Below, one piece after another: positions 5,406 to 35,437 of a DNA stretch of 64,000 bases. The notes under the pieces were generated by a model, which was not told where the DNA came from, did no database searches, and worked only from the letters and a program-made list of their open reading frames with translations. A program made the position numbers and the translations under genes. The DNA comes from an uncultured Erysipelotrichaceae bacterium (GTDB lineage Bacteria; Bacillota_I; Bacilli_A; Erysipelotrichales; Erysipelotrichaceae). The stretch's first letter is position 1. Every line of letters starts with the position of its first letter. The DNA lies in contig CADABS010000003.1 in assembly GCA_902786245.1 (NCBI GenBank), forward strand, positions 1 to 64,000, written 5' to 3'.

Positions 5406-5493
5406 ATATGTTCACCTTCCGCATCCATTATAGACGCTTGCATGCAAAAACATGCTGTATTCTGTACAATAGATGTATGTGGAGGTTCATGCT

Positions 5494-6585: not shown

Positions 6586-6653
6586 ACAAACAGATATTTC
6601 CTGATGTTCATGAATAACCGTGCGGGCAGAAAAATGATCAGATATTCTGTCAT
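6582..6653 (-). CDS. Possible 23-residue hydrophobic microprotein
   Basis: An ATG overlaps the stop of the preceding CHR gene in an ATGA arrangement and opens 23 codons (MTEYLIIFLPARLFMNIRK...). The peptide is hydrophobic in the middle and basic toward the end. Its TAA overlaps the last bases of the convergent radical SAM gene. The coupling is suggestive but the frame is too short to be convincing without conservation. Confidence 0.2.
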   Translation of the reverse strand: MTEYLIIFLPARLFMNIRKYLFV

Positions 6654-7213: not shown

Positions 7214-7773
7214 CAGGCAGCCTCCCTGTTTCCCAAAGCGGAAACCGCAATACCGAGAACGATAAACAGAAGAATGATCGTGATCGATGACACTTTGAAG
7301 CACCATGCCGCAATGAATGCCGCAATCATCAGACAGATATTCATGATATTCTTCGCCTTGATCACATTGCCGGCAAGGTCGATGATCACATCGACAATAA
7401 TAGCTGCTACACCTGCCCGCATGACCCGCAATGCCGTCTGCACAATGAGATTGGAAGAGAATGCATCGTAGATCATACAGATAACACTGATGATTACGAT
7501 CGGCGGTATGACAGTTGCCAGTGCTGAAAGCAGCGCACCAGCAATTCCGGCAATACGGTATCCAAAGATCACTGCACTGTTGACAGCCAGCGCTCCCGGT
7601 GCCGACTGGGCAATCGCAGTCATATCAAGAACCTCTTCATCCGTGACCCATCCGAGTTCATCGCAGAACTTTTTCCGCATCATTCCGATGATCACAAAAC
7701 CGCCGCCGAAGGTGAATGCGGATATAGTCATCATTGACAGAAATAGTTCGAACAGACTGACATTTTTCTTCAT
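7213..7773 (-). CDS. Chromate/sulfate transporter (CHR family) half-subunit, second pair
   Basis: The upstream half of the second CHR pair, 186 residues. It has ISAFTFGGGFVIIGMM, then QSAPGALAVNSAVIFGYR, with several membrane segments after. The start MKKNVSLFEL is chosen because GAGGT lies seven bases upstream; a start five codons earlier has no SD. It is transcribed divergently from the LysR gene across 91 AT-rich bases, the usual layout for a LysR regulator and its target. Confidence 0.9.
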   Translation of the reverse strand: MKKNVSLFELFLSMMTISAFTFGGGFVIIGMMRKKFCDELGWVTDEEVLDMTAIAQSAPGALAVNSAVIFGYRIAGIAGALLSALATVIPPIVIISVICMIYDAFSSNLIVQTALRVMRAGVAAIIVDVIIDLAGNVIKAKNIMNICLMIAAFIAAWCFKVSSITIILLFIVLGIAVSALGNREAA

Positions 7774-7864
7774 GTTATTACCTCGCACGTGAATATTATA
7801 TGCGCTTTATATTCATATAAATATATTTATGTTAATATATTTTACATAATCGATAGGTAATAAT
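7774..7864. promoter_or_regulatory. Divergent CHR/LysR promoter region with palindrome
   Basis: The 91-base intergenic region is very AT-rich and contains a perfect 14-bp palindrome ATAAATATATTTAT at 7817-7830, flanked by imperfect extensions (CAT...ATG). LysR regulators bind AT-rich dyads in such divergent regions and usually repress their own gene while activating the neighbour. I could not assign clear -35 and -10 boxes because many TATA-like words overlap. Confidence 0.45.
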
Positions 7865-8737
7865 ATGACTCTGCGGCATCTGGAAATATTTATCGTTGTG
7901 TGCCGGACGATGTCCATGACCGGCGCAGCAGAAATACTGAACATGACACAGCCGGCTGTATCAAAAGCAGTCAGTGAACTGGAATCGTTTTATCATGTGA
8001 AACTGTTTGACCGTCTTAACCGACGGATCTATCTGACCGAAGCAGGCGAATCACTCCGTCGGTATTCTGAAGAAATCATAGCCCGTTTCGATGAATCTAT
8101 CAGTTTTCTACGGGACAGTTCTTCATTCTTCCGGTGCAGGCTGGCTGTCAACGTTTCTGTCGGCGAAACCGTTCTCGCCGATCTCATACAGTTCATCGGA
8201 GGAAAAATGCCGGATATCGATCTCAGCGTCAGCGTGCATAACAGCAGTACGATCCGGAAAATGCTTCATGAAAACGCGTGTGATATTGCAGTGATCGACA
8301 GTCCGGATGATCCCGATCTGGAATCTGTACCTCTTTTCCGTGAAACACTCCGTCTGTACTGTACAGATGCCTGCATCCCGGAACGATCGGTTTCATTGGA
8401 CCTGCTGAGGCAGAAACAGTTTCTGCTGCGGGAAGCCGGCTCAGGCATGCGCCGCTGCATCGAACCGCTGCTGCATAATCTGCACTGTTCTCCTGATCAG
8501 ATCACTGAAAGCATCTCGAATGACGTCCTTCTGCAGATGTGCCTGAACGGCAGCGGACTTGTACTGCTCAGCGACAGATACCTGAAAAAGCATCGGATCA
8601 GCGGCCTGCACCCTGTTGAAATCGCAGATCATACATTCATACGCAGCTATTCCCTCGTATCTCTGCGGGGCAAATACCTCAATAACGCCGTTACCCGGTG
8701 CATGAAAGTACTGCCGGAATACTTTTCCGGAATATGA
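7865..8737 (+). CDS. LysR-family transcriptional regulator
   Basis: This 290-residue protein has the LysR N-terminal winged helix: MTLRHLEIFIVVC, AAEILNMTQPAVSKAVSELE (helix-turn-helix, residues about 20-39), then LFDRLNRRIYLTEAGE. A substrate-binding domain of the periplasmic-binding type occupies residues about 90-290 and senses a small effector. AGGT precedes the ATG. Divergent placement next to the second CHR pair suggests that it controls that pair. An oxyanion or sulfated or thiol metabolite as effector would fit (inference), as CysB-type members sense sulfur status. Confidence 0.9.
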   Translation: MTLRHLEIFIVVCRTMSMTGAAEILNMTQPAVSKAVSELESFYHVKLFDRLNRRIYLTEAGESLRRYSEEIIARFDESISFLRDSSSFFRCRLAVNVSVGETVLADLIQFIGGKMPDIDLSVSVHNSSTIRKMLHENACDIAVIDSPDDPDLESVPLFRETLRLYCTDACIPERSVSLDLLRQKQFLLREAGSGMRRCIEPLLHNLHCSPDQITESISNDVLLQMCLNGSGLVLLSDRYLKKHRISGLHPVEIADHTFIRSYSLVSLRGKYLNNAVTRCMKVLPEYFSGI

Positions 8738-17919: not shown

Positions 17920-18705
17920 CTATTCTGTGATCTGTGCAGCGATATCCCTGAATGTAATCAGTTCAATATCATTTTTCCGGATCCATTCATGTATTTTTTC
18001 CGATGTCACTGCCTCCAGATCCTTCCTTCGGCAGATATTGAACGGCAGACGCAGCGTATCGCTGTCGAGAAATCCGCAATGGGTGATCAGATATCCGTAT
18101 CCGTGACCGAGATACCCGCTTCTGTCTTCCAGAATATACGACAGCGGATCTTCATTCAGCTGCTGTTCCATCGTTCCGAAAGTATACCAGCCCATGGAAG
18201 GCATCACCGCATCCGGCAGCTTTGCAAAATCCATGGAATACGGAACACTATATTCATGGACCAGTGCTCTGATGACATCGGTTGTTTTCTTTGTCATATA
18301 CGCATGGCCATGCACATAATCCGGTTTTCTGCCCGTCATCTGTATAAACCGTTCAATCTGGGCATGGAATTCCGCATACAGTTCTTCGGTGCAGACATGG
18401 TCCATTCCGTTTTCTTCATGATCCAGTGCTTTGTTTTCCCGGATGCTCAGAAATGAGCCGTCTTCATGACAGAGCGACGGCACTGCCCTGTATCCAAGTA
18501 CACTGGGACCGTTGACCGCATTCAGATCAATTCCGAAAGCCGCCCGATCCAGCAGCGGTATGATCAGTGATACGCATTGTTCTGCGTATGGCATATTGGC
18601 AAACAGACCGGTATTCCGGATAATCCCGTGTTCAATGGCATACACCGCCCCATGCGCAGTGCCCATGGTAATTCCGAAATCATCTGATTGGACAAGCAGC
18701 TTCAT
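17920..18705 (-). CDS. YdjC/ChbG-family carbohydrate deacetylase
   Basis: The 261-residue protein matches YdjC-like deacetylases, which remove N-acetyl groups from amino-sugar oligosaccharides using a metal ion. The metal site is visible as VQSDDFG at residues 5-11 and HGH at about residues 132-134. The catalytic region near the C-terminus (ITFRDIAAQ) is typical. Its start overlaps the stop of the YesN-type regulator gene by ATGA, so it is translated with the regulators. Presence beside sulfatases suggests that the glycan contains N-acetylated amino sugars (inference). Confidence 0.85.
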   Translation of the reverse strand: MKLLVQSDDFGITMGTAHGAVYAIEHGIIRNTGLFANMPYAEQCVSLIIPLLDRAAFGIDLNAVNGPSVLGYRAVPSLCHEDGSFLSIRENKALDHEENGMDHVCTEELYAEFHAQIERFIQMTGRKPDYVHGHAYMTKKTTDVIRALVHEYSVPYSMDFAKLPDAVMPSMGWYTFGTMEQQLNEDPLSYILEDRSGYLGHGYGYLITHCGFLDSDTLRLPFNICRRKDLEAVTSEKIHEWIRKNDIELITFRDIAAQITE

Positions 18706-20249
18706 TTCTTCTTTTCCTCGGCCGGCGTGATACCGAATTCTTTTTTATAGGAAGCCGCAAAATGCGAGAAGTTGGAGTATCCCATCTGGATGGCAACGCT
18801 GCTTACGGATAAAGATGTTGTCTGCAGCAGTTCTCTGGCCGCCAGCATTTTCTGTTCAATAATATAAGACTTGATCGATTTGCCTGTTTCCTTCTTGAAG
18901 ATCCTGGTCAGATAATCTTCATTCAGATGCAGAAGCTCCGTAAGATCCTCTTTCCGGATATTGTCGCCGAGATGTTCGTCGATATAGTCTTTGATCGTCG
19001 AAACGATGCTTTTGCTGTCCTCTGTTTTGCTTTCACTGTCATAAACAGACGCAATCAGATGAATCAGTTCCTCCATTGCGGACTGTGAATGCATGGCATC
19101 TGCATACAGACGCTCATTCTTACCTTCTTTCATAACAGCCTGGATATCGACAGAATGTCCGATTGTCAGCATCAGACGGGTAATATCACGGTAGATGGAA
19201 ATCAGAACGCTCTGATTCAGATGCCCTTCCGCCGCATAGCTGCGCAGAAGTCTGACTGCGTCCTCTTCCATCGCTGCACCGCCACTGTTCTGCAGGATCA
19301 TATTCCAGCGGTAGAACTGTTCCTTGTATTCATTGTCTGCACTGACGCTCTGTTCAACAAACAGACCTTTCTGACCGGTTACATTGGCATTGCGCAGGCT
19401 GATCAGATACTGCCATTTATCATGAAGAGCTGAGAATTCTCCCTCTCCTGCAATATAGTATGCAATACTGCATGGCATATACATGTCATACATGTTTTCA
19501 AGATAGTGCAGAAGCTGAACCAGTTCTTCCCTGCCGAGTTCTCCGGTTTTTGCCTGTACTGCCAGGGCAAAGGTCTTCGGCTCCATGAGTGCCGCAACCC
19601 GGTTGTATTTCTTTTTATCAAAGATATCCCGGATGGCATTATGCATGACCAGTACCAGACTGTGCTCTGTCCAGTCCTTGATCTTTTCCGTCTGCTGAAC
19701 ATACTGCAGCAGAACCAGGTATACCGGCCGATCCGCCGCCGGGAAATCCGGCAGCCCCTGCAGGGCATCCTCCTGTATGGTATGCATGATATAGCCGCGC
19801 CACATACTGCTGGCAATTTCAGCTTCATTATTGGAATAGGAACGGCCAAGATCCGCCATTGCTTTCCTGGAGCTCTCCTCTGCAATCGTCTGCAGCGCCT
19901 TTTCGACCTTTTCACGGATCCTGTGATAGGGTGCCGGCTGAACGATGTAATCCGATACCCCAAGACGGATTGCCTCCTGGGCATAGGTAAAATCCGAATG
20001 GCATGTCAGAAAAAGAATCTTTGTCTGATATCCCTGGTCACGCACCCAGGTGCTCAGGTCGATCCCGGTTTCCACAGGCATTTCAATATCGCACAGCATC
20101 ACATCCGGTACGCTTCTGGCAAAGGAAATTCTCGCTTCCATCGCGTTCTGTGCTGTATCCACTTCATTGAAACCGATTGACTGCCAGTCGATCCCGGTTT
20201 TGAGACCGGTGAGCGTTGCCAGCTGATCATCCACAATTAACAGTTTCAT
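18702..20249 (-). CDS. Response regulator, YesN type (REC + AraC HTH)
   Basis: The 515-residue regulator has a receiver domain at residues about 1-120: KLLIVDDQ, the phospho-acceptor Asp in MLCDIEMP, and Lys near SDYIVQPAP, where the usual Lys after the β5 strand seems replaced by Gln. A long middle region follows, then two AraC helix-turn-helix motifs at the C-terminus (EDLTELLHLNEDYLTRIFKKE and VAIQMGYSNFSHFAASYKKEFG). The start at MKLLIVD is set by GAGG six bases upstream, inside the end of the kinase gene. It probably activates the neighbouring transport and sulfatase genes. Confidence 0.92.
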   Translation of the reverse strand: MKLLIVDDQLATLTGLKTGIDWQSIGFNEVDTAQNAMEARISFARSVPDVMLCDIEMPVETGIDLSTWVRDQGYQTKILFLTCHSDFTYAQEAIRLGVSDYIVQPAPYHRIREKVEKALQTIAEESSRKAMADLGRSYSNNEAEIASSMWRGYIMHTIQEDALQGLPDFPAADRPVYLVLLQYVQQTEKIKDWTEHSLVLVMHNAIRDIFDKKKYNRVAALMEPKTFALAVQAKTGELGREELVQLLHYLENMYDMYMPCSIAYYIAGEGEFSALHDKWQYLISLRNANVTGQKGLFVEQSVSADNEYKEQFYRWNMILQNSGGAAMEEDAVRLLRSYAAEGHLNQSVLISIYRDITRLMLTIGHSVDIQAVMKEGKNERLYADAMHSQSAMEELIHLIASVYDSESKTEDSKSIVSTIKDYIDEHLGDNIRKEDLTELLHLNEDYLTRIFKKETGKSIKSYIIEQKMLAARELLQTTSLSVSSVAIQMGYSNFSHFAASYKKEFGITPAEEKKK

Positions 20250-21867
20250 CTGTTGCCTCACTATTCATTTTCATCGGAATCATCAGATCCACTTTAGCGC
20301 CATTATTATTGGAAAACAGAACCGAACAGTCATCCCCGTAAAGCATCCGGAAACGAAGAAGTGTGTTTGCCATGCCGATGTGATTCTGCTGTTTGACCTG
20401 ATCTATATCCTGGTTCAGCAGTTTCAGCATATCTTTATCGTATCCCCTGCCATTGTCTCTGACCGTAATGATTGCATATTTCTGATCATCAAGACTTCGG
20501 ACCGCTGTCTGAATCCGGATGATCAGCGGATTATCCGGTACAGAACCGTATTTACAGGAATTCTCAAGAATCGTTAACAGCGATACCGGCGGAATCGCGA
20601 AGTCATCCAGTTCCGGGTCGCTCTCAATGACGATCATCGGTTTCAACGGCTGACCGATTCCCTGCAGCTTGATATAGTCCTCGCACATCTTCAGTTCTTC
20701 TTTCAAAGGAACCGAATCATTGTCAAAGTTCAGGGTATAGCGCAGGTTGGTCGATAACAGCAGTGCCGTCTGCTTGACGCCGTCCATATTGCCGGTGCTT
20801 GCCATCGCATAGATGTTTTTCAGACAGTTCAGGAAGAAGTGCCTGCGGATCTGCAGACGCAGCGCATCTGTCTTGGCACGTCTGGCAGTCAGACGCTGCT
20901 CATAGGATTCGATCTTGGCATCGCGCAGATGATCCATCATTGTATTGAATGTATCTGAAATCGCAGCGAGTTCCTTGCTTGTGCCTTCCGGCAGTCTCTT
21001 CTCCATATCGCCGCTGCCGATTTCATCCATGACTGTTTCCATTTCCGACATCGGTTTCAGAATCGTACGGCGAAGGTAGAACATGGTAACAGCCAATGAA
21101 AGTACAGCTACGCCGACAAACAGATAGCCGAAATAATAGAGCCAGCGGAAGTCGTAATAATAGATAACACTGTACAGCATCCGCATGCCGAGCAGATTCG
21201 TTTCGGAAAGCATATACTGCCTGCCGAGAGAATGAACGATTTCAGGTTCCGTAATCTTTGCCGGTATCGGATCAGATACACTTCTCTGCCACAAAGCGCT
21301 GGAAAGGAAGTCTTCTCCGCGCTTGAATACGATTGAACCGGGAATGTTGTAAATGTTTGAAGACGTTGCGGCCAGACGGCGGATCGAAATGACCGCGGTA
21401 ATCACAGTGTCATCCGCTATTGCATTGCGGACCATGTAATACTGGCCGTCCTGTTCATCCAGATACCAGCCGCGGTCGCCGAACGAATCATATCGAGCCT
21501 GATAGCCGGTAAAAACCTTGTCCACTCTGTTCAGCTCACGGCCTTCTTCATCAAAGAATACCAGTTCCGTGATGGCGCTGTTTTCATTGACAAACTCATT
21601 TGCGGACACGATCAGATCATCATATGTTTCACTGAGTTCCTTCGCATACAGGAACTGATCGATTTTCTGAATTTCATCCCGCAGGTTCGCCGCATATGTA
21701 TTCATCGTATCCGTCTGGTAGGACCATTGTTCTGTGATCAGTCTGTCCGTGAAATTTCCAAGCAAAAAGAAGTACAGAACGATCAGAGGTATCTGTACCA
21801 GTGAAACCGCCGCCAGGATCATTCCCTGGGCGGATCTTTTATTCGTTTTTGTACTTCTTTGCGTCAA
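20227..21867 (-). CDS. Sensor histidine kinase, YesM/LytS type
   Basis: This is a 546-residue kinase with a TM segment at about residues 15-37, an extracellular sensor region of about 240 residues, a second TM at about 265-290, HAMP, and a His_kinase block. The phospho-acceptor His lies in RRHFFLNCLKN, and the ATP-binding Asn in LTILENSCKYG and DNGRGYD follow. I read the start as TTG at 21867 with GAGG upstream, because the only other in-frame ATG would begin inside the first membrane helix. It ends 22 bases inside the regulator gene. Confidence 0.9.
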   Translation of the reverse strand: MTQRSTKTNKRSAQGMILAAVSLVQIPLIVLYFFLLGNFTDRLITEQWSYQTDTMNTYAANLRDEIQKIDQFLYAKELSETYDDLIVSANEFVNENSAITELVFFDEEGRELNRVDKVFTGYQARYDSFGDRGWYLDEQDGQYYMVRNAIADDTVITAVISIRRLAATSSNIYNIPGSIVFKRGEDFLSSALWQRSVSDPIPAKITEPEIVHSLGRQYMLSETNLLGMRMLYSVIYYYDFRWLYYFGYLFVGVAVLSLAVTMFYLRRTILKPMSEMETVMDEIGSGDMEKRLPEGTSKELAAISDTFNTMMDHLRDAKIESYEQRLTARRAKTDALRLQIRRHFFLNCLKNIYAMASTGNMDGVKQTALLLSTNLRYTLNFDNDSVPLKEELKMCEDYIKLQGIGQPLKPMIVIESDPELDDFAIPPVSLLTILENSCKYGSVPDNPLIIRIQTAVRSLDDQKYAIITVRDNGRGYDKDMLKLLNQDIDQVKQQNHIGMANTLLRFRMLYGDDCSVLFSNNNGAKVDLMIPMKMNSEATDETVNCG

Positions 21868-24422: not shown

Positions 24423-24443
24423 AAAAAGACTCCCGGAGGAGTC
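24421..24443 (-). terminator. Rho-independent terminator after the GH3 gene
   Basis: The stem GACTCC/GGAGTC with a four-base loop is followed on the minus strand by TTTTTTT. It ends the pfk-pgi-GH3 unit. Confidence 0.9.
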
Positions 24444-24448
24444 CTGGA

Positions 24449-26890
24449 TCAAAGCACTTCTGTCTCGCAGATATAGGAACGTTTTCCCATTACACAGACC
24501 TTTTCACCGGTCAGTTCCACTGTCTTTGAGACGGGCAGACAATCGGAACTGTCACCGCAGTATACCGTCAGTTCGCCCGGTTCGACAACGAATTCCATAT
24601 CTTCATTGTAATATCCGAGCTGTGCCAGTTTCAGACGGAACTTCACGGTCTTCTTTTCACCCGCCTCCAGATGTACCTTGCGGAATCCGGAAAGCTGAAT
24701 GACAGGTCTTGTCACATGGGCACCGAAGAAATGCGTATAGAGCTGTACGGCTTCATCACCGGCTCTGTCTCCGGTATTGGCCGCATCGCAGCAGATTTCC
24801 AGTATACCGTCCGTCGGACATGTATCTGCCGTGCGCAGATTGGAAATCTCAAAGGATGTATAGCTAAGGCCATGGCCGAAGTGATACAGCGGATCGGAAG
24901 GTCCGTCGACATAGCCGCCCGAGAAGATGCTCGATGCGGTAATATCACCGCCCGATCTGTAGCCGGAACCGGCTCTGTGATTGTAGAAAACCGGGATCTG
25001 ACCGGCCGAGCGGGGAACCGACATCGTCAGTTTTCCGGAAGGATTGACCGTACCGTCCAGCACATCTGCGACTGCCTCTGCCGCATGCTGACCGGGCATG
25101 AATGCCTCGATGACCGCATTGGCATGTTCATCTGCCCAGTTGACGGCAAATACACCCGGGCCATAGAGAATGACGACCAGCGGTTTTCCTGTCTTTGCGA
25201 CTTCTTCCAGCAGTTCCTGCTGGACACCCGGCAGATCCAGATACTGTCTGTCTTTGCCTTCGCCTCCGGTGACATTGACCCAGCCGCAGTTTCCGCCAAG
25301 CGCCATGATCACCGCATCCGCCTGTTCAGCCGCTTCCACTGCCTCTTTGAATCCGTCTCTGGAAGGACCGGTAATATCGCAGCCCTTTGCATAAACAGTC
25401 TCAGTCCGTGCGGATAATGCTTCCTTCAGCGTTGTGGCGCCCATATTGCGCAGAACGGTATTCATATCGGAAAGCTTTGCCTTGTCCTCTTTTGAGAACA
25501 TGTCATACATTGTTGCGAACGGACCCTTCGGCAGCTTTTTGTCCTTGTTTTCCGTTTCCAGTTTCTTCTGTTCATCCGCAATGCCGCCGAATGTCGTTTC
25601 CTGACCGCTGGAACCCGCCTGCATCATTTCGATATATGCCGGATAGGTATAGCCGGAAACAGGATAGCGCAGGCTGTCCGCATGGGGACCGATCACCGCC
25701 AGCTTTGTACCCTTCTTCAGCGGCAGAACGCCATCGTTTTTCAGCAGAACGATGGATTTCTGTGCAATCTCATAGCTGAGTTTTTCCTTTTCGGCATTGG
25801 CCATTGCCGTACTGACTTTTTCCGTATCCGCATACGGATTTTCAAACAGACCCATATCGAACTTGATCTTGAGAATGCGGCGTACCGATTCATCGATCAG
25901 TTCTTCGGAAATTCTTCCTTCTCTGACATATTCCGGCAGATGGCGGAATGCCGCACCGACCGGGATTTCCGTATCGCAGCCGCCCAGTTTTGCCAAGAGA
26001 CCCGCTTCTTCATACGTCTTTGACAGCTTGTAATAGTTATACAGCTTCAGTACGGCTGCACCGTCACTGGTAAGCATACCCTTGAAGCCCATGGTATCTC
26101 TGAGCAGGGTGCGGGCGATTTTCTTGTTTGTAATGACCGGCTGTCCGTCGATTTCGCCGTAGTTGGCCATCATACCGCCAAGACCCGCTTCTTTATCGCA
26201 GGCTTCAAACGGCGTCGCATAGACTTCATACAGCTCGCGGTCATTGATCCTTGCCTGAGCTGTATTCAGACCGCCCTGGGTCGACGCATATCCGAGGAAA
26301 TGCTTGGCAATACAGCTGACGCCTTCTGCCTGCATGCCCCTGACATAATTGATGCCGAACTGGGAAATCAGATATGGATCTTCGCCATACGTTTCATAGG
26401 TTCTGCCCCAGCGCGGATCATTGGAGACATCGATGACCGGACTCATCGCGGAAGTAATACCGACCGCGCGGCTTTCCTGGCCGATGATATGCGTCATCTT
26501 CTCTGCCAGTTCCGGTTCCCATGTACAGCCGAGGTTGATCTGGGCAGGGAACAGGGTTCCGCCGGCAGCCGGATAGCCGCAGAGATTCTCTGACTGCAGC
26601 GCGACCGGTATACCGAGTCTTGTTTCTTCCACGAAGTATCTCTGTACTTCATTGGTGATCTCCGCGATCTGCTTCGGATCGACAAGTCCGACCAGGGAAT
26701 ACTGGGTAAAGCGGCCGTGTCCGTCCGGGAATTTTTCTTTCAGAAGTTCTTTATTCAGTTTTCCGTCCTGAATAAACGACGCCGCCAGATCGCCGCAGAG
26801 CTGGGCTGCTTTTTCTTCCAGCGTCATGCGGGAGAGAAGGTCTTCGATTCTTTCTTCTGTACTGAAGGACGGATCTTTATATTTTTCCAT
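24449..26890 (-). CDS. Glycoside hydrolase family 3 (beta-glycosidase)
   Basis: An 813-residue GH3 enzyme. The N-terminal TIM-barrel domain carries KHFLGYAS and the nucleophile Asp276 in MLTSDGAAV. The middle alpha/beta-sandwich domain has KNDGVLPLKKG and IALGGNCGWVNVTGGEGKDR, and a fibronectin-III-like C-terminal domain ends the protein. There is no signal peptide, so it acts inside the cell on imported β-glycosides. AAGGAG precedes the ATG. It lies 11 bases downstream of the isomerase gene, in the same transcript, under the ROK operator upstream. Specificity (glucoside, xyloside or glucosaminide) cannot be read from the sequence. Confidence 0.92.
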   Translation of the reverse strand: MEKYKDPSFSTEERIEDLLSRMTLEEKAAQLCGDLAASFIQDGKLNKELLKEKFPDGHGRFTQYSLVGLVDPKQIAEITNEVQRYFVEETRLGIPVALQSENLCGYPAAGGTLFPAQINLGCTWEPELAEKMTHIIGQESRAVGITSAMSPVIDVSNDPRWGRTYETYGEDPYLISQFGINYVRGMQAEGVSCIAKHFLGYASTQGGLNTAQARINDRELYEVYATPFEACDKEAGLGGMMANYGEIDGQPVITNKKIARTLLRDTMGFKGMLTSDGAAVLKLYNYYKLSKTYEEAGLLAKLGGCDTEIPVGAAFRHLPEYVREGRISEELIDESVRRILKIKFDMGLFENPYADTEKVSTAMANAEKEKLSYEIAQKSIVLLKNDGVLPLKKGTKLAVIGPHADSLRYPVSGYTYPAYIEMMQAGSSGQETTFGGIADEQKKLETENKDKKLPKGPFATMYDMFSKEDKAKLSDMNTVLRNMGATTLKEALSARTETVYAKGCDITGPSRDGFKEAVEAAEQADAVIMALGGNCGWVNVTGGEGKDRQYLDLPGVQQELLEEVAKTGKPLVVILYGPGVFAVNWADEHANAVIEAFMPGQHAAEAVADVLDGTVNPSGKLTMSVPRSAGQIPVFYNHRAGSGYRSGGDITASSIFSGGYVDGPSDPLYHFGHGLSYTSFEISNLRTADTCPTDGILEICCDAANTGDRAGDEAVQLYTHFFGAHVTRPVIQLSGFRKVHLEAGEKKTVKFRLKLAQLGYYNEDMEFVVEPGELTVYCGDSSDCLPVSKTVELTGEKVCVMGKRSYICETEVL

Positions 26891-26901: not shown

Positions 26902-28155
26902 TTATTTTCCAAGCGCATTGAACATGCGTACTTTATACGCTTCCACACCGGGCTGATCAAACGGATCAACTCCCATGATGCCGCAGGATACATAGCAGGC
27001 AAACTGGAAGAACCAGAACAGCTGACCGAAATGATAGGCATCGATTCTGCCGATCTGAATTACATTGCACGGGAACTTCTGGGCATGGGCTGCCAGCGTT
27101 GCCTCATATGCAGCCTTATTGATATCGAAGAAATCCTTGCCGTTTAGATAATCAAAGCGGTCATCTGCTTCATCTGCTTCAATGACCAGAGAATCCTGCT
27201 GTTCCTTCACATTCAGGAATGTCTCAAAGATCATGTTCTCTCCATCCTGGATATACTGGCCGATGGAATGAAGCTGTTCGGTAAATTCACCGGTGACCGG
27301 GAATATACCCTTTCCGTCTTTGCCTTCGCTCTCGGCAAACAGCTGCGTCCACCAGTAGAAGAAGTTTCTGAACTGGGGTTCAAAAGACGACAGCATCTCG
27401 ATTTTCCATCCGTTTCTGTAATACAGATTCCGCAGGGCCGCATACCGGTATGCATCATTGCTTTCCGCCGGTGCGCTGCGCAGCTGTTTCTGCATATCCG
27501 CAGCACCCTGTACGACGGAGCGGATATCGATTCCTGCCACTGCCATCGGCAGCAGTCCGACATTGGAGATCGCTGTAAAGCGGCCGCCGATATCCAGCGG
27601 GAAATCGATGAATTCATATCCCTGTTCCTGACAGAGTTCATCCAGACGGCTGCCCCTGGTACCGGTGCAGATGACTCTGGACGCATAGTCTTTGCCGTAT
27701 CTTTCCTTCAGTGCCTTCCGCAGCAGACGGAAGGAAGAACCCGGTTCCAGCGTTTCAAAGTTCTTGGCGATGCAGTCGATGAAGAAGTCTTTTCCTTCCA
27801 GCTGCTTCAGCATCCGGTTCAGTGCATTGGCCGAAAGCGTATTGCCGGCATAGATGATTTCCGGGGCATCCGGTGTCCGCAGTGCTTCGATCACGGATCT
27901 TGCCGCATTGTTGGATCCGCCGACACCGATCAGTACGAATGCATCGGATGTCTTCCGGATCTTTTCCGCGATTTCTTCAATGCGGCTGACTTTTTCTCCA
28001 TCCGCCCATTCTTCTGTATTCAGCCAGCCCAGGCTGTCCGCATATTTTTCTTCACCTTTCTGCGCTCTTGTGAGAACATCCGTGTTCTCTGCCATGATCT
28101 GATTCAGCTGACTCTGCAGTGTTTCCTGCAGACCTGTAACATCCAGACGGATCAT
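26902..28155 (-). CDS. pgi: Phosphoglucose isomerase-like protein with altered phosphate loop
   Basis: This 417-residue protein aligns along its length with Bacillota phosphoglucose isomerases: LIGVGGSNNAARSVIEAL, DIGGRFTAISNVGLLPMAVAG, WWTQLFAESEGKDGKG, FTEQLHSIGQYIQDG and ACYVSCGIMGVDPFDQPGVEAYK. However, the phosphate-binding loop, normally SKSGTTTE or SKTFTT, reads AKNFETLE (residues 130-137). It has lost the Ser and one Thr and gained a Glu. It may isomerise a different sugar or sugar phosphate. The start at MIRLDV is set by AAAGGGG and an ATGA overlap with the phosphofructokinase gene. Confidence 0.85.
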   Translation of the reverse strand: MIRLDVTGLQETLQSQLNQIMAENTDVLTRAQKGEEKYADSLGWLNTEEWADGEKVSRIEEIAEKIRKTSDAFVLIGVGGSNNAARSVIEALRTPDAPEIIYAGNTLSANALNRMLKQLEGKDFFIDCIAKNFETLEPGSSFRLLRKALKERYGKDYASRVICTGTRGSRLDELCQEQGYEFIDFPLDIGGRFTAISNVGLLPMAVAGIDIRSVVQGAADMQKQLRSAPAESNDAYRYAALRNLYYRNGWKIEMLSSFEPQFRNFFYWWTQLFAESEGKDGKGIFPVTGEFTEQLHSIGQYIQDGENMIFETFLNVKEQQDSLVIEADEADDRFDYLNGKDFFDINKAAYEATLAAHAQKFPCNVIQIGRIDAYHFGQLFWFFQFACYVSCGIMGVDPFDQPGVEAYKVRMFNALGK

Positions 28156-29330
28156 ATTCTTTCCCCTTTCACAAATACTTTCATCGGACTGAGCGGTCCG
28201 CCCAGCAGCGGCCGGCACCAGTCTTTGAATGCCGGCGTGACACCGTTTCCGTTTTCATTGATGAATTCGGCAGGCATTGTCTTTTCATGCATCATGACTT
28301 CATCGATGGAAACAAGGAATGTCTCCATCACATACGGTTCATCGGATGTTCTGCGGAAAGCAACCATCTTTCCGCTTTCCCCGGCCAGTGCCGCTCTGCA
28401 TGCTTCCTGACCGGCGATGACTGCCTCCTGCACATCGATATCGCTGCGCAGACCGATCGAAGCCCTGCCCAGCAGGCCCGGCTTTTCGCCTCTTGCTTTA
28501 TAGCCTAGCCGCTGAATGACAAGATTTGCCAGATGTGCACTGACATCGCCGAAGTATACGGAACGGCCGACTTTAAAGATCGGCTTTACGACAGGATTTC
28601 CTTCTTTGTCTTTCAAACCTTCGCTTGCCACAACGACAATTCCCGACTTTGTTTTCAGCAGTTCTTCAATATCATGGATATACTGCTCTTCATCAAAGGG
28701 CACTTCCGGCAGATAGATCAGATCCGGCTTCAGCCCGTCTTCATCTTCCGCCATGGCACTGGCTGCCGTGATCCATCCGGCATTTCTGCCGGACGCCTCG
28801 AGCACAGCGACATGGATGGCAAGACCGCTGACATCCGCCAGCAGTTCTTTCGTATTTTCTGCCATGAACCTTGCGGCACTGGCAAAACCGGGACTGTGGT
28901 CGGTGACCGCAATATCGTTATCCGTTGTCTTGGGAATGCCCATAACTTTGATATCCAGACCCTTTTTCTCACACATCCGGTACATCTTTCCGCATGTATC
29001 CATCGTACCGTTGCCGCCGTTGAACAGAATGTATCCGATATTGTATTTCACGCATACTTCTGCCATTCTTTCATATTCAGCTTCTTCCAGCTGATCACGC
29101 GATGTGCCGATTGCACTGCCGGGGGTTGTCAGAAGTCTTTCCAGTACATCTGCAGGCACATCGGTCAGATCAATCAGTTTTTCTTTCATCAGACCGCCGG
29201 TGCCGTATTCCGCCGCATAGACTCTGTCAATCATTTCAGATGCCTGTGCTTCTTTCACCGCACCGTAGAGGGAGGCGTTGATCACTGCCGTCGGTCCGCC
29301 GCCGTGGACCATCAGAATATTCTGTTTCAT
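28152..29330 (-). CDS. Phosphofructokinase (PfkA family), mixed ATP/PPi signature
   Basis: A 392-residue PfkA-family protein with GGGPTAVINASLYG at the N-terminus, GGNGTMDT at residues 105-112 and GIPKTTDND at 131-139. Pyrophosphate enzymes usually have Asp where Gly108 sits (GGNDS) together with Lys134; ATP enzymes of the bacterial type have Gly at both. Gly with Lys resembles the ATP-using trypanosomatid form, so the phosphoryl donor is uncertain. AGGAGG lies four bases before the ATG. The gene is preceded by a good promoter and two operator palindromes, and followed by pgi with an ATGA overlap. Confidence 0.88.
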   Translation of the reverse strand: MKQNILMVHGGGPTAVINASLYGAVKEAQASEMIDRVYAAEYGTGGLMKEKLIDLTDVPADVLERLLTTPGSAIGTSRDQLEEAEYERMAEVCVKYNIGYILFNGGNGTMDTCGKMYRMCEKKGLDIKVMGIPKTTDNDIAVTDHSPGFASAARFMAENTKELLADVSGLAIHVAVLEASGRNAGWITAASAMAEDEDGLKPDLIYLPEVPFDEEQYIHDIEELLKTKSGIVVVASEGLKDKEGNPVVKPIFKVGRSVYFGDVSAHLANLVIQRLGYKARGEKPGLLGRASIGLRSDIDVQEAVIAGQEACRAALAGESGKMVAFRRTSDEPYVMETFLVSIDEVMMHEKTMPAEFINENGNGVTPAFKDWCRPLLGGPLSPMKVFVKGERI

Positions 29331-29341
29331 GACTCCTCCTA

Positions 29342-29425
29342 TTAATTAAATGTTTTAACTAATTACATGATACAGAAACGCAGCGGCCTTTGCAAGATAA
29401 TTTATTAAAATGTTTAATAAATTAT
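29342..29425 (-). promoter_or_regulatory. pfk-pgi-GH3 promoter with two ROK-type operators
   Basis: On the minus strand TTGCAA (29395-29390), a 17-bp spacer and TATCAT (29372-29367) form a promoter. One operator, TTAATTAAA-TGT-TTTAACTAA, lies at 29342-29362 just downstream of the -10. A second, TTTATTAAA-ATG-TTTAATAAA (29401-29421), lies just upstream of the -35, and its arms extend to a perfect 13-bp inverted repeat (29397-29409 and 29413-29425). The arrangement fits repression by the ROK regulator encoded next door. Confidence 0.75.
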
Positions 29426-29435
29426 CCGTGCATAA

Positions 29436-29457
29436 TGAAAACCCGGTTTCCCGGGTT
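29436..29457 (-). terminator. Weak terminator of the ROK regulator gene
   Basis: AACCCGG pairs with CCGGGTT over a four-base loop, touching the stop codon, followed by TTTTCATT on the minus strand. The U-run is short, so some read-through into the pfk unit is possible. Confidence 0.5.
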
Positions 29458-30662
29458 CATCTGACAAAGTATTTATCTAAGCAGACAGCAGCCGCTGCGG
29501 CGGCACCGCCGTATTCATCAAAGAATACATACCGGATCTGTGTATGGTCTGTATCTGCCGAATACGAATATCTGCGCATGACCTGTTCTGCTGTATTCCG
29601 GTTCTGTTCCAGTGCGAACATCGGCCCGCCCAGAACGATCAGATCCGGATTCATGAACGAAATGATATTGGCCAGTGCAGTTCCCATATAATGCATGGCT
29701 GAATCCATGAGTCTTCCGATATCTGCGTCCCCTGCCGTCTGGGCCTGATGGATATGGTCGACCGTCAGTTTTTCCGGATCGCTGCAGATTTCCGCCAGCA
29801 CCGGTGCCTTTCCTTCTTTCAGCAGTTCCCCGGCAGTTTTCAGAACATACCGCAGGCTGGAAAATTCTTCCAGTGTTTTTCCGGATACGGGATCCATGAC
29901 CATATGGCCGATTTCCCCGGCGGCACCGTATTCGCCGCGGACGCTGCGGTTCTGCAGGATCATCGGTCCGGCAATGCCCCAGGAGGCATAGCATAGGACA
30001 AAGGAATCACAGCCGGCAACGGCTTCCGGATAAAACAGAGACAGCAGAATGGTTCTTGCCCGGACATTGTTTTCAATACGCACCGGCAGTCCGTATCTTT
30101 CTGCGATTTCATCTGCCGGCCGCTGATTCTGCCAGGAAGAACGGTGGGAATCGATCTGACAGACCGTACCTGTATGGGCGTCGACGACCGCCGGCACGGC
30201 AACGCCGATACCGATCAGCCGGTTCCAGAGATCCGGATGGGAATCGCGGACCGAATCGATCAGCCTGCAGAGCGACTGCATCATCCTGCCGTAATCCGCA
30301 GGCATGACCTTTTCTTCTCCTTTCACCGCCATATTGCCTTTCAGATCGCATATGCAGTAATGCGTTCTGTCCCGGCCCAGTGAAATACCCAGTGCATATT
30401 TCGCATCCGGCACATAATCCAGCAGAACCGGATGCCGTCCTGCCTTTCCGGTTTTCTCACCCGGCTGATCCGGTATTTCCTGCAGAATTCCGTCTGTGAT
30501 CAGTTCCGCCGTGATATTGGTGATCGTCGGCGGCGTCAGTTCCAGCATTTCCGCAATCTGCGCCCGGGAAAGCGGTCCGTACCGGTAAAGAAGCGACTTG
30601 ATCAGTGTTATGTTTTCCTGTTTGGCAATGATCTGGTTTTTGCCGTAATTCCTGACAGCCAT
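29457..30662 (-). CDS. ROK-family transcriptional repressor (NagC/XylR type)
   Basis: A 401-residue ROK regulator. The N-terminal winged helix spans residues about 15-75 (LIKSLLYRYGPLSRAQIAEMLELTPPTITNI broken here into its recognition helix TPPTITNITAELI). The sugar-binding ROK domain follows: ISLGRDRTHYCICDLKG, RIENNVRAR, ASWGIAGPMILQ, GEIGHMVMDP. The usual zinc Cys cluster after GHM is missing. It sits between its two presumed targets, pfk-pgi-GH3 downstream and tpi-larA divergent, and all three promoters carry the same palindrome. GGAGG precedes the ATG. Confidence 0.92.
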   Translation of the reverse strand: MAVRNYGKNQIIAKQENITLIKSLLYRYGPLSRAQIAEMLELTPPTITNITAELITDGILQEIPDQPGEKTGKAGRHPVLLDYVPDAKYALGISLGRDRTHYCICDLKGNMAVKGEEKVMPADYGRMMQSLCRLIDSVRDSHPDLWNRLIGIGVAVPAVVDAHTGTVCQIDSHRSSWQNQRPADEIAERYGLPVRIENNVRARTILLSLFYPEAVAGCDSFVLCYASWGIAGPMILQNRSVRGEYGAAGEIGHMVMDPVSGKTLEEFSSLRYVLKTAGELLKEGKAPVLAEICSDPEKLTVDHIHQAQTAGDADIGRLMDSAMHYMGTALANIISFMNPDLIVLGGPMFALEQNRNTAEQVMRRYSYSADTDHTQIRYVFFDEYGGAAAAAAVCLDKYFVR

Positions 30663-30675
30663 AGCACCTCCGCGA

Positions 30676-30701
30676 TTAATTAAATCGTTTTATATATTAT
30701 A
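30676..30701 (-). promoter_or_regulatory. ROK regulator -10 box and autoregulatory operator
   Basis: TATAAT (30701-30696, minus strand) is the likely -10. The palindrome TTAATTAAA-TCG-TTTTATATA at 30676-30696 lies just downstream in the leader. One arm matches the operator consensus exactly; the other is degenerate. This suggests weak autoregulation. No clear -35 was found. Confidence 0.5.
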
Positions 30702-30745
30702 TGATACTTTTATCCGGACAGTTACTGTTTTTACGGATTCAGGGC

Positions 30746-30799
30746 TTGATTAATTAATCATTTTAACTTATTATCTAATTAGTTAATCGTTTTAATTAA
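30746..30799 (+). promoter_or_regulatory. tpi-larA promoter with two ROK-type operators
   Basis: TTGATT (30746-30751), 17 bp and TATTAT (30769-30774) form the promoter. Operator TTAATTAAT-CAT-TTTAACTTA (30750-30770) fills the -35/-10 spacer. A second, TTAGTTAAT-CGT-TTTAATTAA (30779-30799), covers the transcription start and ends next to the SD. Repressor bound here would block polymerase directly. Confidence 0.75.
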
Positions 30800-30811: not shown

Positions 30812-31657
30812 ATGAAACATATTTATCTGAATCTCAAGCGATTCGATATTCCCGGGGAATACGGCGGTGTCAATTCGCTCTGCCCTGCCCCGGAATACGG
30901 CAGCACCATTATCCGTTCCGTACAGGACGCACTGTCCGTCTATGACCCGGATGAAACAGACTTCACGATTTTCTTTCCGGAAGCGCATATCCTCTCTGCC
31001 GTCAGTGCTAAAAATCCTGACAGCGCGCTGATGATCGGTGCCCAGTCTGCCGACCGGGCAGATACCGCCCCGGGCGGAAACTTCGGTGCCTTTACTTCCA
31101 GACGCCCTGCTGCGGCAGTCAGAGCACTCGGCTGCGAAGCCGTTATGATCGGGCATTGTGAAGAACGCAATGAAAAAAGACAGCTTCTGCGCGATGCCGG
31201 CGTATCCGATGAACAGGCATCCGCTGTCATCAATAAAGCACTGAATGACGAGATCCGCTGTGCTGTCAGCCGCGGTCTGAAAGTACTCTACTGCATCGGC
31301 GAAAGAAGCGAAGAACAGGAACGCTGGCAGGAAGTACTGCAGGCGCAGATCGAAACCGGGCTGCAGGATATTGACAGAACCGGCGTTGTCATCGCCTATG
31401 AGCCGGTCTGGTCGATCGGACCGGGCAAAACGCCTGCCGACAGACCGTATATCGATAAAGTCGCCCGCTTCATTCACAGCCTGGATCTGCAGCTCGATGT
31501 CGTATACGGCGGCGGTCTGAAAAAAGACAATGCGGAAATGCTGGCATCCATCGAAGACATCAGCGGCGGCCTGATCGCACTGACCCGCTTTGCCGGCGAT
31601 ATCGGTTTCTATCCGGATGAATATCTGGAAATCATACGCTTATATACAGGAAAATAA
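30812..31657 (+). CDS. Triose-phosphate isomerase-like protein (divergent)
   Basis: The 281-residue protein is a TIM homologue with NLK at residues 7-9, the catalytic His115 in IGHCEER (usually IGHSERR), catalytic Glu197 in AYEPVWSIGPGKTP, and YGGGLKKDN in place of YGGSVNP. It is longer than the usual 250 residues. Such divergence is seen in TIM-like enzymes acting on other phosphates, for example tetrulose phosphates (EryH type), so triose phosphate is not assured. GGAGG lies five bases before the ATG, immediately after the second operator. It is followed after nine bases by the LarA-like gene. Confidence 0.82.
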   Translation: MKHIYLNLKRFDIPGEYGGVNSLCPAPEYGSTIIRSVQDALSVYDPDETDFTIFFPEAHILSAVSAKNPDSALMIGAQSADRADTAPGGNFGAFTSRRPAAAVRALGCEAVMIGHCEERNEKRQLLRDAGVSDEQASAVINKALNDEIRCAVSRGLKVLYCIGERSEEQERWQEVLQAQIETGLQDIDRTGVVIAYEPVWSIGPGKTPADRPYIDKVARFIHSLDLQLDVVYGGGLKKDNAEMLASIEDISGGLIALTRFAGDIGFYPDEYLEIIRLYTGK

Positions 31658-31666
31658 GGAGAAAGC

Positions 31667-33148
31667 ATGAAACATTTGGAATTCGAATACGGCGCCGGCA
31701 CAATGGGCGCAGATCTGCCTGATTCAACCGATGTATTTATTCCCGGCGAGACTGTACAGGATCCGCCGTTTATCCCGGAAGACCGGCTGGAAGAAGCATA
31801 CCTGGAAAGCATCCGCAATCCGATCGGCATGAAACCTGTCACCGAACTGGTCCATAAGGGATCAAAAGTCGTCTTCGTCGTACCGGACAGAGTCAAAGGC
31901 GGCGAACAGAAGACAAGCCACCGCAAGCTTTCCATCAAATATCTTCTGAATGAACTGTACAGCGCCGGTGTGGAACCGCAGGATATCCTCTTCATCATTT
32001 CCAACGGTCTCCATCCCCGCAGCACCGAACAGGACGCAAAAGCGATCTTCGGCCAGGAAATCTTCGATGCTTTCTGGAGCAGCGGACAGATCATTTCTCA
32101 TGACTCGGAAGATTCGGAACATATGATCGACCTCGGCACGACCAGACGCGGCGATCCTGTCGTCATGAACAAGTATGTTTTTGACGCAGACCTGCCGATC
32201 CTGATCGGACATGTCCAGGGCAACCCTTACGGCGGCTATTCCGGCGGCTATAAGCACAGCGCGACCGGCATTACCAACTGGAGATGCATCGCCTCCCATC
32301 ATGTACCGGCAGTCATGCACAGAGAAGACTTCACACCGGTAAACAACGGTTCTCTGATGAGAAACAAATTCGATGAAATTTCCATGCATATGGAAGAAAA
32401 GATGGGCCATCCCTTCTTCTGCTGCGATGCAGTTCTGGATTCCAAATCGCGCCAGATCAGAATTTTCAGCGGATATGCAAAGGAAATGATGCCTTTATCC
32501 TGGAAAGTCGCAGACAGGCGCACATATGTCCACTGGGCCGAAAAGAAATACGATGTCATCGTCTTCGGCATGCCCCAGAAGTTCCATTACGGCGACGGCA
32601 TGGGCACCAATCCGATCATGATGATGCAGGCACTCAGTGCCCAGGTGCTCCGCCACAAAAGAATCATGAGCGACCGCTGCGTCATTATCTGTTCCTCCCT
32701 GTGCAACGGCTTCTTCAATGATAAAAAATGGCCGTATCTCAGGGAACTCTATGAATGGTTCCAGCACGACCAGATGAACCAGCTTCCCGATATGAACCGG
32801 CTCGGCGAATACTTTGCGACAAACGAAGAATACATCCGCCAGTACCGCTTCGCCAATGCCTTCCATCCGTTCCACGGCTTCTCGATGATGAGCTGCGGAC
32901 ACATTGCCGAAATGAACACCAGCGCGCTCTACATCGTCGGTGCGGAAGATCCGGGCTATGCCAGAGGCATGGGTCTCAAGACCAGAGCCACCTTTGAAGA
33001 AGCACTGGAAGACGCAAAAAAGAAATATGTCGGCGAAAACCCGAATATTCTGGCGCTGCCACTGACATTCAAAACCGCTGCCGTCCATCTCTGCATGAAA
33101 GATCCCGACCAGGATCCGATGGATGAATACGGACACATGCATAAATGA
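31667..33148 (+). CDS. LarA-like nickel-pincer racemase/epimerase
   Basis: A 493-residue protein of the LarA (DUF2088) superfamily, whose members racemise or epimerise 2-hydroxy acids with a nickel-pincer cofactor. The N-terminal domain has VVFVVPDRV and SNGLHPRST with His116, matching the first catalytic His. HVQGNPYGGYSGGYKHS carries Lys196, matching the Lys that binds the cofactor. The position of the second catalytic His appears to be Tyr (NPYGGYSGG versus PHxxAGxSGG). No larB, larC or larE cofactor genes are in the window. Its place after the TIM-like gene suggests a sugar acid or hydroxy acid substrate. Confidence 0.75.
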   Translation: MKHLEFEYGAGTMGADLPDSTDVFIPGETVQDPPFIPEDRLEEAYLESIRNPIGMKPVTELVHKGSKVVFVVPDRVKGGEQKTSHRKLSIKYLLNELYSAGVEPQDILFIISNGLHPRSTEQDAKAIFGQEIFDAFWSSGQIISHDSEDSEHMIDLGTTRRGDPVVMNKYVFDADLPILIGHVQGNPYGGYSGGYKHSATGITNWRCIASHHVPAVMHREDFTPVNNGSLMRNKFDEISMHMEEKMGHPFFCCDAVLDSKSRQIRIFSGYAKEMMPLSWKVADRRTYVHWAEKKYDVIVFGMPQKFHYGDGMGTNPIMMMQALSAQVLRHKRIMSDRCVIICSSLCNGFFNDKKWPYLRELYEWFQHDQMNQLPDMNRLGEYFATNEEYIRQYRFANAFHPFHGFSMMSCGHIAEMNTSALYIVGAEDPGYARGMGLKTRATFEEALEDAKKKYVGENPNILALPLTFKTAAVHLCMKDPDQDPMDEYGHMHK

Positions 33149-33184: not shown

Positions 33185-34651
33185 TTACAGACCAAGCCGG
33201 ACATACTGCTCTGCAGGTGCTTCGGCTTTTTTCATTTCTTCCTTCAGAAGCCTGATCATACAGGCTTCCGTTTCCGGATCATCGAGGGGATGAACCTGCA
33301 GCGGATCCTTCTGCCGGTCAAACAGCATCGTGCCGTACTGCACATGGCTGCTGTAGCGGTAGTAGCGTTTTCTGTCATAGCGCTCATCCCCCGGAATTTT
33401 CAGTACAGGCACATGATCCGCAAAGGCAAAGTCTCTGCACAGCAGATCGTCCGCCTGGGTGATTTCTTCTTTTTTCATGTATTTTTTGATATGCGCAGGC
33501 ATCAGGGTGTACTGGTACAGCGGTGCGTTGTCTCTGTTTCCGGCCCGCATATATGTATACCTGCCGTCCGTCACATTGACATGCATGCCGAAGTATCCGT
33601 AGAGAATGGAATCATGGATCTTTTCTTTCCCTGCCAGCAGCCCCAGAATCGATTCTCCGGTCATATGTCTGCCTTTTTCAACACCGAAGAAATCCAGTAC
33701 CGTTGGGGCAATATCCGGTGTCTGAGCCAGTCCGTGACAGACCGTTCCGTCCGCTTCCGGATGGCGGGGATCATGCAGGAAGAACGGAATATTTGCCAAT
33801 TCATCATAGACCGGCGGATAGTTCTTTCCGACATATCCTTTTTCTCCCAGCAGGAAACCGTGATCCGTATTGACAATTAACATCGTGTCTTTCCACAGAT
33901 CATGTTCATCAAAGAAATCCAGGATCCTGCCAAGATATGCATCGCACATGGTGACGAGTGCTTTGTAATTGCGGATAAAGCCTCTGACCTTGCCCTGTTC
34001 ATCTGTTTCATATCTGCGGTACTCCGGCCAGTCATCCGTGCTTTCTTCTCCCGGATAAAGATCTTTATATTTCTGCGGCACAAAGAACGGCTCATGGGGA
34101 TCGAAATATTCCAATTGCAGAAACCATCTGTCCTGATCCGCATGTTCCTGCAGGAACTCCATGCCTTTTGCAAAACTGCGGACATGGCATGTCTCTGCCT
34201 CTTCTGCCATTGCTCTGCGGTTGATTGCATCCTGCTGCCGCGATGTCAGCGGTCCGTCAAAGTCTGCCGGATCTGCCTTCCATGCGTCGCCTTCCTGTCC
34301 CCGGACAAATTCAAAGGAACTGTAATTCGTCCAGTAATTCGCACCGCCTGCCTCCCAGTAATGGCAGTGGTCTGTCACCAGATGGCTCCAGATCCCGTGT
34401 TCTCCCAACATGGCCGGCATCGATTCATCAAAGGGTTCAAACGGGCTCCAGCTGCGGTGCAGAAAGTTCAGTCTGCCGGTATGCAGTTCCCTTCTGGCCG
34501 GCATACAGGGCATACTGCCGGTAAAGAAATGATCAAAGACAGCGGAATGTTCCGCCAGGCGCTTAAAGTTCGGTGTATATGTATCCCTGCATCCATACGG
34601 TTCCAGAAACCGTTTATTCAGTGAATCATACATGATCATGACAGCTTTCAT
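33185..34651 (-). CDS. Sulfatase (S1 type), paralogue C
   Basis: A 488-residue sulfatase related to paralogues A and B: MKAVMIMYDSLNKRF, Cys49 in SMPCMPARRELHTGR, RSWSPFEPFDESMP, and metal site NTDHGFLLGEKGYVGK. The first metal-site residues are conserved. It is cytoplasmic by the lack of a signal peptide. GGAGG lies eight bases before the ATG. It stands alone on the minus strand, convergent with the LarA-like gene and divergent from a decayed Gfo/Idh gene, so it may be a stray member of the locus with its own promoter. Confidence 0.92.
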   Translation of the reverse strand: MKAVMIMYDSLNKRFLEPYGCRDTYTPNFKRLAEHSAVFDHFFTGSMPCMPARRELHTGRLNFLHRSWSPFEPFDESMPAMLGEHGIWSHLVTDHCHYWEAGGANYWTNYSSFEFVRGQEGDAWKADPADFDGPLTSRQQDAINRRAMAEEAETCHVRSFAKGMEFLQEHADQDRWFLQLEYFDPHEPFFVPQKYKDLYPGEESTDDWPEYRRYETDEQGKVRGFIRNYKALVTMCDAYLGRILDFFDEHDLWKDTMLIVNTDHGFLLGEKGYVGKNYPPVYDELANIPFFLHDPRHPEADGTVCHGLAQTPDIAPTVLDFFGVEKGRHMTGESILGLLAGKEKIHDSILYGYFGMHVNVTDGRYTYMRAGNRDNAPLYQYTLMPAHIKKYMKKEEITQADDLLCRDFAFADHVPVLKIPGDERYDRKRYYRYSSHVQYGTMLFDRQKDPLQVHPLDDPETEACMIRLLKEEMKKAEAPAEQYVRLGL

Positions 34652-34784
34652 CTCAGATTCCTCCACGTATACAATACATGCATGCAGAAAGCCGTACTGC
34701 CCGGGAAGCGGAATCTTATTGTCACAAAAGCGACATCTGCAGGAAAAGAAAGAACTCCTGTATAATCAGAAGAAGAAAGAGGCT

Positions 34785-35437
34785 GTGAATAAAATACGAT
34801 ACGGGATCATATCCTGCGCATCCATCGTCCCCCGCTTCGCGCAGGGAATGGAACTGACTGAAACAGGAACCGTCTGTGCGATAGCGTCCAGGGATCCTGC
34901 AAAAGCACGGAAACTGGCAGAGGAACTGTCCATCCCGAAAGCATACGGAGATTACCAGGCACTGCTCGATGACCCGGACATTGATGCAGTATATATCCCG
35001 CTGATCAACAGTATGCATTATCCATACGCAAAGAAAGCACTGCTTTACCGGAAAGCATGTACTGACGGAAAAGCCGTTCGTCATACACAGCCGGGAAGCG
35101 GAAGAACTGTTCACGATTGCCCGGGAAAAGAAACAGTTCTCTGGCGGTATGGGCTGTATCCCAGGATGTACTCTTTGACAACGGCCTGACAATATACTTT
35201 GACCATAGCCGCATCTTTATCCCGGATTTCTGGAAAGCCGGCACTGCCGTGATCGAAGCAGAAGGAAAAGAACAGGAAACCATTCACTGTCCCTGTTCCT
35301 TTGAATTCCAATTTGAACTTTCCCATTACAATGCATGTATCCGGGAAGGCAGATGGTCCAGCCCCATCACCGCTCCTGAGAAAACAATCCGGTATATCCG
35401 GTTCTGTGAAGATTTGAAGAAAGCATGGTCAAAGTAA
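34785..35437 (+). pseudogene. Gfo/Idh/MocA oxidoreductase remnant
   Basis: From a GTG at 34785 the frame reads NKIRYGIISCASIVPRFAQG, a Rossmann start, down to HYPYAKKALL. The expected GKHVLTEKPFVIHSREAEEL continues in another frame, and a third frame then supplies LAVWAVSQDVLFDNG and FIPDFWKAGTAVIEAEGKE to a TAA at 35437. Two frameshifts and an internal loss of roughly 100 residues show that it is dead. Intact members have about 320-350 residues and oxidise sugars or sugar acids with NAD(P). It was probably once part of the glycan locus. Confidence 0.8.

Follow-up and report, generated by a model that had tools for sequence, protein, structure and literature searches.

In the genome of an uncultured Erysipelotrichaceae bacterium, five palindromes lie around a ROK-family regulator gene, which is situated between a pfk-pgi-GH3 gene set and a tpi-larA gene pair. 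This arrangement raises the question of which protein recognizes the palindromes and what kind of sugar the neighboring enzymes serve. We analyzed a stretch of 64,000 nucleotides (contig CADABS010000003.1, positions 1 to 64,000; hereafter the window) together with related genomes and control loci. Judging from the sequence, the five palindromes are very probably the operators of the ROK protein encoded between them, which would control a local regulon by sugar-relieved repression, the targets being an enzyme set for a special sugar.

Table 1. Features of the ROK locus (window coordinates; a dot marks features to which no strand is assigned)
Feature	Coordinates	Strand	Basis or remark
Intrinsic terminator-like hairpin, just 3' of GH3 gene	24426..24445	-	
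GH3 glycoside hydrolase, last gene of pfk operon	24449..26890	-	family search
pgi paralogue, altered phosphate-binding loop (SKSGTT to AKNFET)	26902..28155	-	
pfk paralogue, PPi-dependent type (PRK14072)	28152..29330	-	family search
Operator, pfk proximal	29342..29362	.	3' of -10, covers predicted transcription start; kept in G041 and G103
Predicted pfk promoter, TTGCAA-17-TATCAT	29367..29395	-	-35 identical and 17-nt spacer in three genomes
Operator, pfk distal	29396..29426	.	14-bp perfect arms, 21-bp core 29401-29421; adjoins -35; kept in G041 and G103
ROK-family regulator, N-terminal winged helix-turn-helix, 401 aa	29457..30662	-	family searches, structure matches
Weaker operator-like palindrome	30676..30696	.	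14 bp 5' of ROK start codon; not kept in relatives
Predicted tpi promoter, TTGATT-17-TATTAT	30746..30774	+	layout common to three genomes
Operator, tpi	30750..30770	.	occupies spacer, contacts both hexamers of tpi promoter
Operator, tpi	30779..30799	.	on predicted transcription start, immediately 5' of ribosome-binding site
tpi paralogue, catalytic Lys/His/Glu retained, loop-8 phosphate clamp replaced	30812..31657	+	
larA, single-histidine (Asn) subfamily of nickel-pincer-nucleotide enzymes	31667..33148	+	family and structure matches

Palindromes in the window, its genome, and related genomes

The initial annotation had reported five copies of a 21-bp palindrome, and direct reading of the sequence located all five where it had placed them. 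On the better strand, the mismatches to its pattern numbered zero at 29342, one at 30779, two each at 29401 and 30750, and three at 30676; four palindromes are strong, and the copy at the ROK promoter (30676) is weaker. The perfect arms at 29401, described as 13 bp long, are actually 14 bp long (29396–29409 and 29413–29426, with a gap of 3 nt). A scan of the window allowing up to three mismatches returned the five sites (10 matches on both strands), compared to 0.02 matches expected from 100 dinucleotide shuffles.

Orthologues of the ROK protein were found in four of the 70 genus genomes searched: its own genome (G000) and the genomes G041, G011, and G103 (64%, 62%, and 57% identity to the ROK protein of the window, respectively). 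The gene order tpi-larA, ROK, and pfk-pgi-GH3 is retained in G041 (locus L010, in a Solobacterium sp. MAG from sheep jejunum) and in G103, with pgi identities of 78–79%, and four sites stand at matching places on both promoters in the two genomes. In the G041 genome, all four matches with three or fewer mismatches fall at this orthologous locus. The ROK protein of G011 has the same recognition helix as that of the window and lies in a different neighborhood; no site with two or fewer mismatches was found in G011, and the best score there by the site model described below (14.8) lies just 5' of its own ROK start. The G011 genome contains no detectable TPI, so its assembly may miss genes.

The placement of the sites relative to the predicted promoters was compared among the window, G041, and G103. 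At tpi-larA, the spacing within the pair is 29 bp in each genome, with one site filling the spacer between the TTGATT-like and TATTAT-like hexamers and the other covering the transcription start. At pfk-pgi-GH3, the sites flank TTGCAA-17-TATCAT (the -10 hexamer in G041 is TATTCT) and are spaced by 59, 69, and 59 bp; the single change, of 10 bp or about one helical turn, may have arisen by chance. The initial annotation had assigned sites to three promoters. This held for pfk-pgi-GH3 and tpi-larA, whereas the case for the ROK promoter is weak, as the 30676-type site is kept in neither G041 nor G103 and the ROK gene has no recognizable consensus promoter. In L010 (11213–11310) and in another locus, L080 (8314–8400), the pfk -35 hexamer (TTGCAA) appeared by eye to lie within an intrinsic terminator of the ROK gene, so that the end of the ROK unit and the pfk promoter are interlaced.

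One may suspect that the palindromes are AT-rich promoter or leader-RNA elements rather than protein operators, given that the sites are AT-rich and that two of them lie within predicted leaders. However, the shuffled sequences contain practically no such matches, and related genomes retain both the symmetry and the spacing. Moreover, each promoter has one site that is placed upstream of it or inside it and hence lies outside its transcript. We consider this explanation extremely improbable.

The window's own genome (2,747,971 bases in 102 contigs, 96.5% complete) was scanned with the same pattern. Nine sites had three or fewer mismatches, and all four with two or fewer are those of this locus. 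The three-mismatch sites consist of 30676 and four places elsewhere, and the reversed control pattern gave counts of 4 and 3; thus, 30676 is inseparable from chance on mismatch count alone. A site model was built from 12 training sites of the three genomes (four from the window, with 30676 excluded), and 150 candidates were scored per genome. With 150 of the 302 candidates in the own genome scored, all five window sites exceeded any other reported match, and 30676 reached 12.3 bits against 10.1 bits for the sole match elsewhere. Leave-one-out scores of the training sites ranged from 25.7 to 36.7, and the best independent match in the window scored 9.5. The initial annotation had claimed a self-contained regulon and suggested a genome scan for the consensus; the scan confined the strong sites, those with two or fewer mismatches, to this locus. 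A chance origin of the palindromes was rejected on the basis of the shuffles and the genome scans.

The ROK protein as the probable binder of the sites

The protein encoded between the sites possesses a ROK domain (PF00480, E 6.4e-29, residues 91–377) and aligns with Mlc and NagC structures from residue 13; its MarR-like helix-turn-helix match (23.5 bits) is slightly below the cut-off of 24.6. All four orthologues possess the sugar-binding ExGH motif, which reads GEIGH or GELGH. Mlc-type repressors need the cysteines of a zinc site, and this site (CxCGxxGC) is absent from the four orthologues, a point against the proposed ROK regulation, and present in the ROK proteins of three other loci (L011, L082, and L083). 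The best curated matches were NagC (133.7 bits, cut-off 650) and Mlc (115.4 bits, cut-off 530), and identity with either was rejected.

The motif was also observed beside more distant ROK genes. Three loci whose ROK proteins share 28–31% identity with that of the window carry the same motif: in G018, a sulfoquinovose operon that includes a ROK gene has the site 15 bp 5' of its first gene; in L011, from a Clostridia MAG, one site precedes the ROK gene by about 110 bp; and in G055, a site is located about 290 bp beyond the end of the ROK gene. In G033, the motif occurs in the gap before a ROK gene at a non-sulfoquinovose locus. Overall, the motif was present in all three sulfoquinovose loci with a ROK gene and in none of the 12 sampled from the class that lacked a ROK match. 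The sulfoquinovose operons were called by sulfoquinovose isomerase matches of 223–393 bits (the sole family match, below the cut-off of 700) plus DUF4867, and that of G018 also by a GH31 match (PRK10426, 784 bits, cut-off 553). Among 10 larA-tpi loci without ROK (183 kb), two motif matches were found, both in AT-rich loci and neither within the gap 5' of tpi. One match was found among 38 other loci of the ROK search (the G055 locus), and none among 18 housekeeping loci. Against a link of motif and ROK, five of nine distant HTH-ROK loci (L013 and L134–L137) lacked the motif, and G011, despite the shared recognition helix, has no good site. The larA and sulfoquinovose genome sets are samples, and 10 of the 11 larA loci outside the own genome were fetched. 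This co-occurrence supports the ROK protein as the putative binder of the sites.

The locus encodes other regulators nearby, an AraC-type two-component response regulator (18702–20261) and a LysR-type protein (7865–8737), to either of which the sites might belong. This is very unlikely: G103 has the sites and its sequenced 18.3 kb matches neither gene, and unrelated ROK operons elsewhere are also accompanied by the motif. Perfect palindromes of 21 bp are not usual for AraC-type response regulators or LysR proteins.

From these observations, we infer that the ROK protein binds the sites, that it represses rather than activates, and that a sugar is the signal. A ROK dimer, or a dimer of dimers, would bind the paired sites at both promoters. 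At tpi-larA, the bound protein would cover the spacer between the -35 and -10 hexamers and the transcription start, and at pfk-pgi-GH3 it would bracket the promoter, blocking RNA polymerase in both cases; binding of a sugar or sugar derivative in the ROK domain would then release it from the DNA. Activation by the bound ROK protein, at least at pfk, would agree with the distal palindrome (29396–29426) adjoining the pfk -35 hexamer and with an upstream copy being kept in three genomes. Yet each conserved pair also includes a site that covers the transcription start or falls within the promoter spacer, as expected of repression, and activation is unlikely. As for the extent of the proposed repression, the genome scan, the conservation in relatives, and the tracking of ROK genes by the motif point to a strictly local ROK regulon, which would consist of two small operons and perhaps weak self-control of ROK.

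Sulfoquinovose operons were also observed in other settings. The own genome contains a separate one (L145; contig C64, 4973–9990) encoding GH31 YihQ-like, SLA-reductase-like, DUF4867, and SQ-isomerase-like proteins, with neither a ROK gene nor an operator. ROK-family regulators together with a candidate 21-bp operator occur within the sulfoquinovose operons of L082, L117, and L011; a literature search found no paper linking sulfoquinovose with 'ROK family'. Kinship with the sulfoquinovose ROK proteins was considered as substrate evidence and is weakened by the tree, which does not join the three motif-bearing relatives with the ROK protein of the window.

Predicted target enzymes and their possible substrate

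The pfk-pgi-GH3 operon probably ends at the terminator-like hairpin after GH3, and tpi-larA faces a convergent sulfatase gene. These two boundaries limit the predicted regulon to pfk-pgi-GH3, tpi-larA, and perhaps ROK; an extension of the pfk operon into the sulfatase, kinase, and two-component genes was rejected on account of the terminator.

The pfk, pgi, and tpi genes are divergent, specialized paralogues and not the main glycolytic genes of the cell. The genome encodes a separate housekeeping TPI (299.5 bits against 113.6 for the regulated copy, Pfam model), a separate housekeeping PGI (411.9 against 73.3 bits, Pfam model), and five PFKs in all. Control of central glycolysis was rejected, given the existence of the housekeeping copies, and the 'glycolytic' annotations at this locus are misleading. 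In loop 8, GGL[IV][AG]LT[RKN]F was found in all 13 larA-linked TPI paralogues and GGAS in all three housekeeping copies; the regulated tpi product thus lacks the GGAS clamp of a canonical triosephosphate isomerase. Likewise, the PGI loop SKSGTT is AKNFET in three of three paralogues. In TPI and PGI, these loops bind the phosphate of the substrate.

In the LarA of the window, Asn replaces the second catalytic His (QGNPYGGYSGG), as it does in L010 and in the Blautia wexlerae LarA structure 9Q3J; the position is that given for single-His LarA in an excerpt of PMC12611868. It matches 9Q3J with 995 bits and the Streptococcus plurextorum structures 9Q2U and 9Q3K with 809 bits. According to the same excerpt, structures of these enzymes exist and an unidentified ligand was seen, no lactate racemization was found, and the reaction is not known, the substrate being left open (PMC12611868). 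LarC (PF01969), taken as a marker of NPN cofactor synthesis, is encoded in four of the five genomes searched, including the own genome, and a tpi paralogue lies immediately 5' of larA in all 10 fetched class loci. Our literature search found no paper on LarA together with these neighbor genes. The shared control would join pfk-pgi-GH3 and tpi-larA into one pathway and indicate which enzymes to assay together, and the ligand of the ROK protein would directly read out the pathway substrate.

Leads to the substrate were sought in the neighbor genes. The window encodes four sulfatases, a sulfatase-maturase-like protein, a chromate-transporter pair, a ChbG/YdjC-like deacetylase, and a sugar ABC transporter. 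The ten other larA-tpi loci contain relatives of an SsuA-like protein (seven loci), TauE (six), NagB-like proteins (eight), and amidohydrolases (six), and several contain a class II aldolase; the SsuA-like protein itself scores 50.7 bits, below the cut-off of 163.5. Taken together, these genes point to a sulfated or sulfonated sugar (or amino sugar), and a pathway for such a sugar may serve as a lead. Two loci do not readily fit it: L097, which has a fructose-PTS subunit, and L106, which has none of these genes.

In its most specific and rather doubtful form, this lead would place under the operators a second, glycolysis-like route dedicated to a 6-sulfated or 6-sulfonated sugar, in which the PGI, PFK, and TPI paralogues yield a sulfo-triose that passes to LarA and the ROK protein senses the sugar. 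The phosphate-binding loops of PGI and TPI would have been rebuilt for the sulfo group, and LarA without the second histidine would convert the sulfo-triose, possibly by C2 oxidation eliminating sulfate or sulfite. If so, the uncharacterized single-His LarA group would gain a function.

Several further features of these loci were noted. An anaerobic-sulfatase-maturase-like gene (TIGR03942, 329.8 bits, cut-off 349.45) and the chromate-transporter pair lie near the LysR gene (window 5473–7788), and the larA-tpi loci L098 and L099 likewise have a chromate-transporter pair and a LysR-type gene. In L097, two adjacent genes resembling split transketolase halves by eye (6665–8417) are located just 5' of tpi-larA, and a fructose-PTS EIIC gene and a class II aldolase gene lie near the pair. 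A GFO/IDH/MocA oxidoreductase gene in the window (34632–35437) is apparently broken, with a match in a 185-aa frame only and none in the next (106 aa).

Comparison with known systems

The nearest parallel in gene content is the larA neighborhood of S. plurextorum, in which the same gene set (pgi, fructose-6-phosphate phosphotransferase, and tpi) stands beside an Asn-type LarA; regulation is not mentioned in the excerpt describing it (PMC12611868). The Sulfo-EMP2 pathway for sulfoquinovose likewise employs a PfkA-family kinase and a class II aldolase, as outlined in an excerpt of PMC9594981. Unlike that pathway, the predicted regulon has no SqvD-type isomerase, and the sulfoquinovose operon of the own genome is located elsewhere, with neither ROK nor the motif.

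With regard to the regulator, NagC and Mlc share the combination of a helix-turn-helix and a ROK domain, but the ROK protein of the window scores far below their cut-offs, lacks the zinc-site cysteines, and appears to be local rather than global. The XylR (ROK) regulons of Firmicutes resemble the present locus in that AT-rich inverted repeats accompany a ROK regulator at the locus encoding it. The motifs of XylR vary by group, and a 25-bp repeat, ACTTattAAAnnnnnTTTaaAAAgt, was demonstrated by EMSA in C. acetobutylicum (excerpt of PMC2873477). In contrast, the repeat in the window is 21 bp long, no xylose genes belong to the predicted regulon, and its putative targets are paralogues of glycolysis enzymes.
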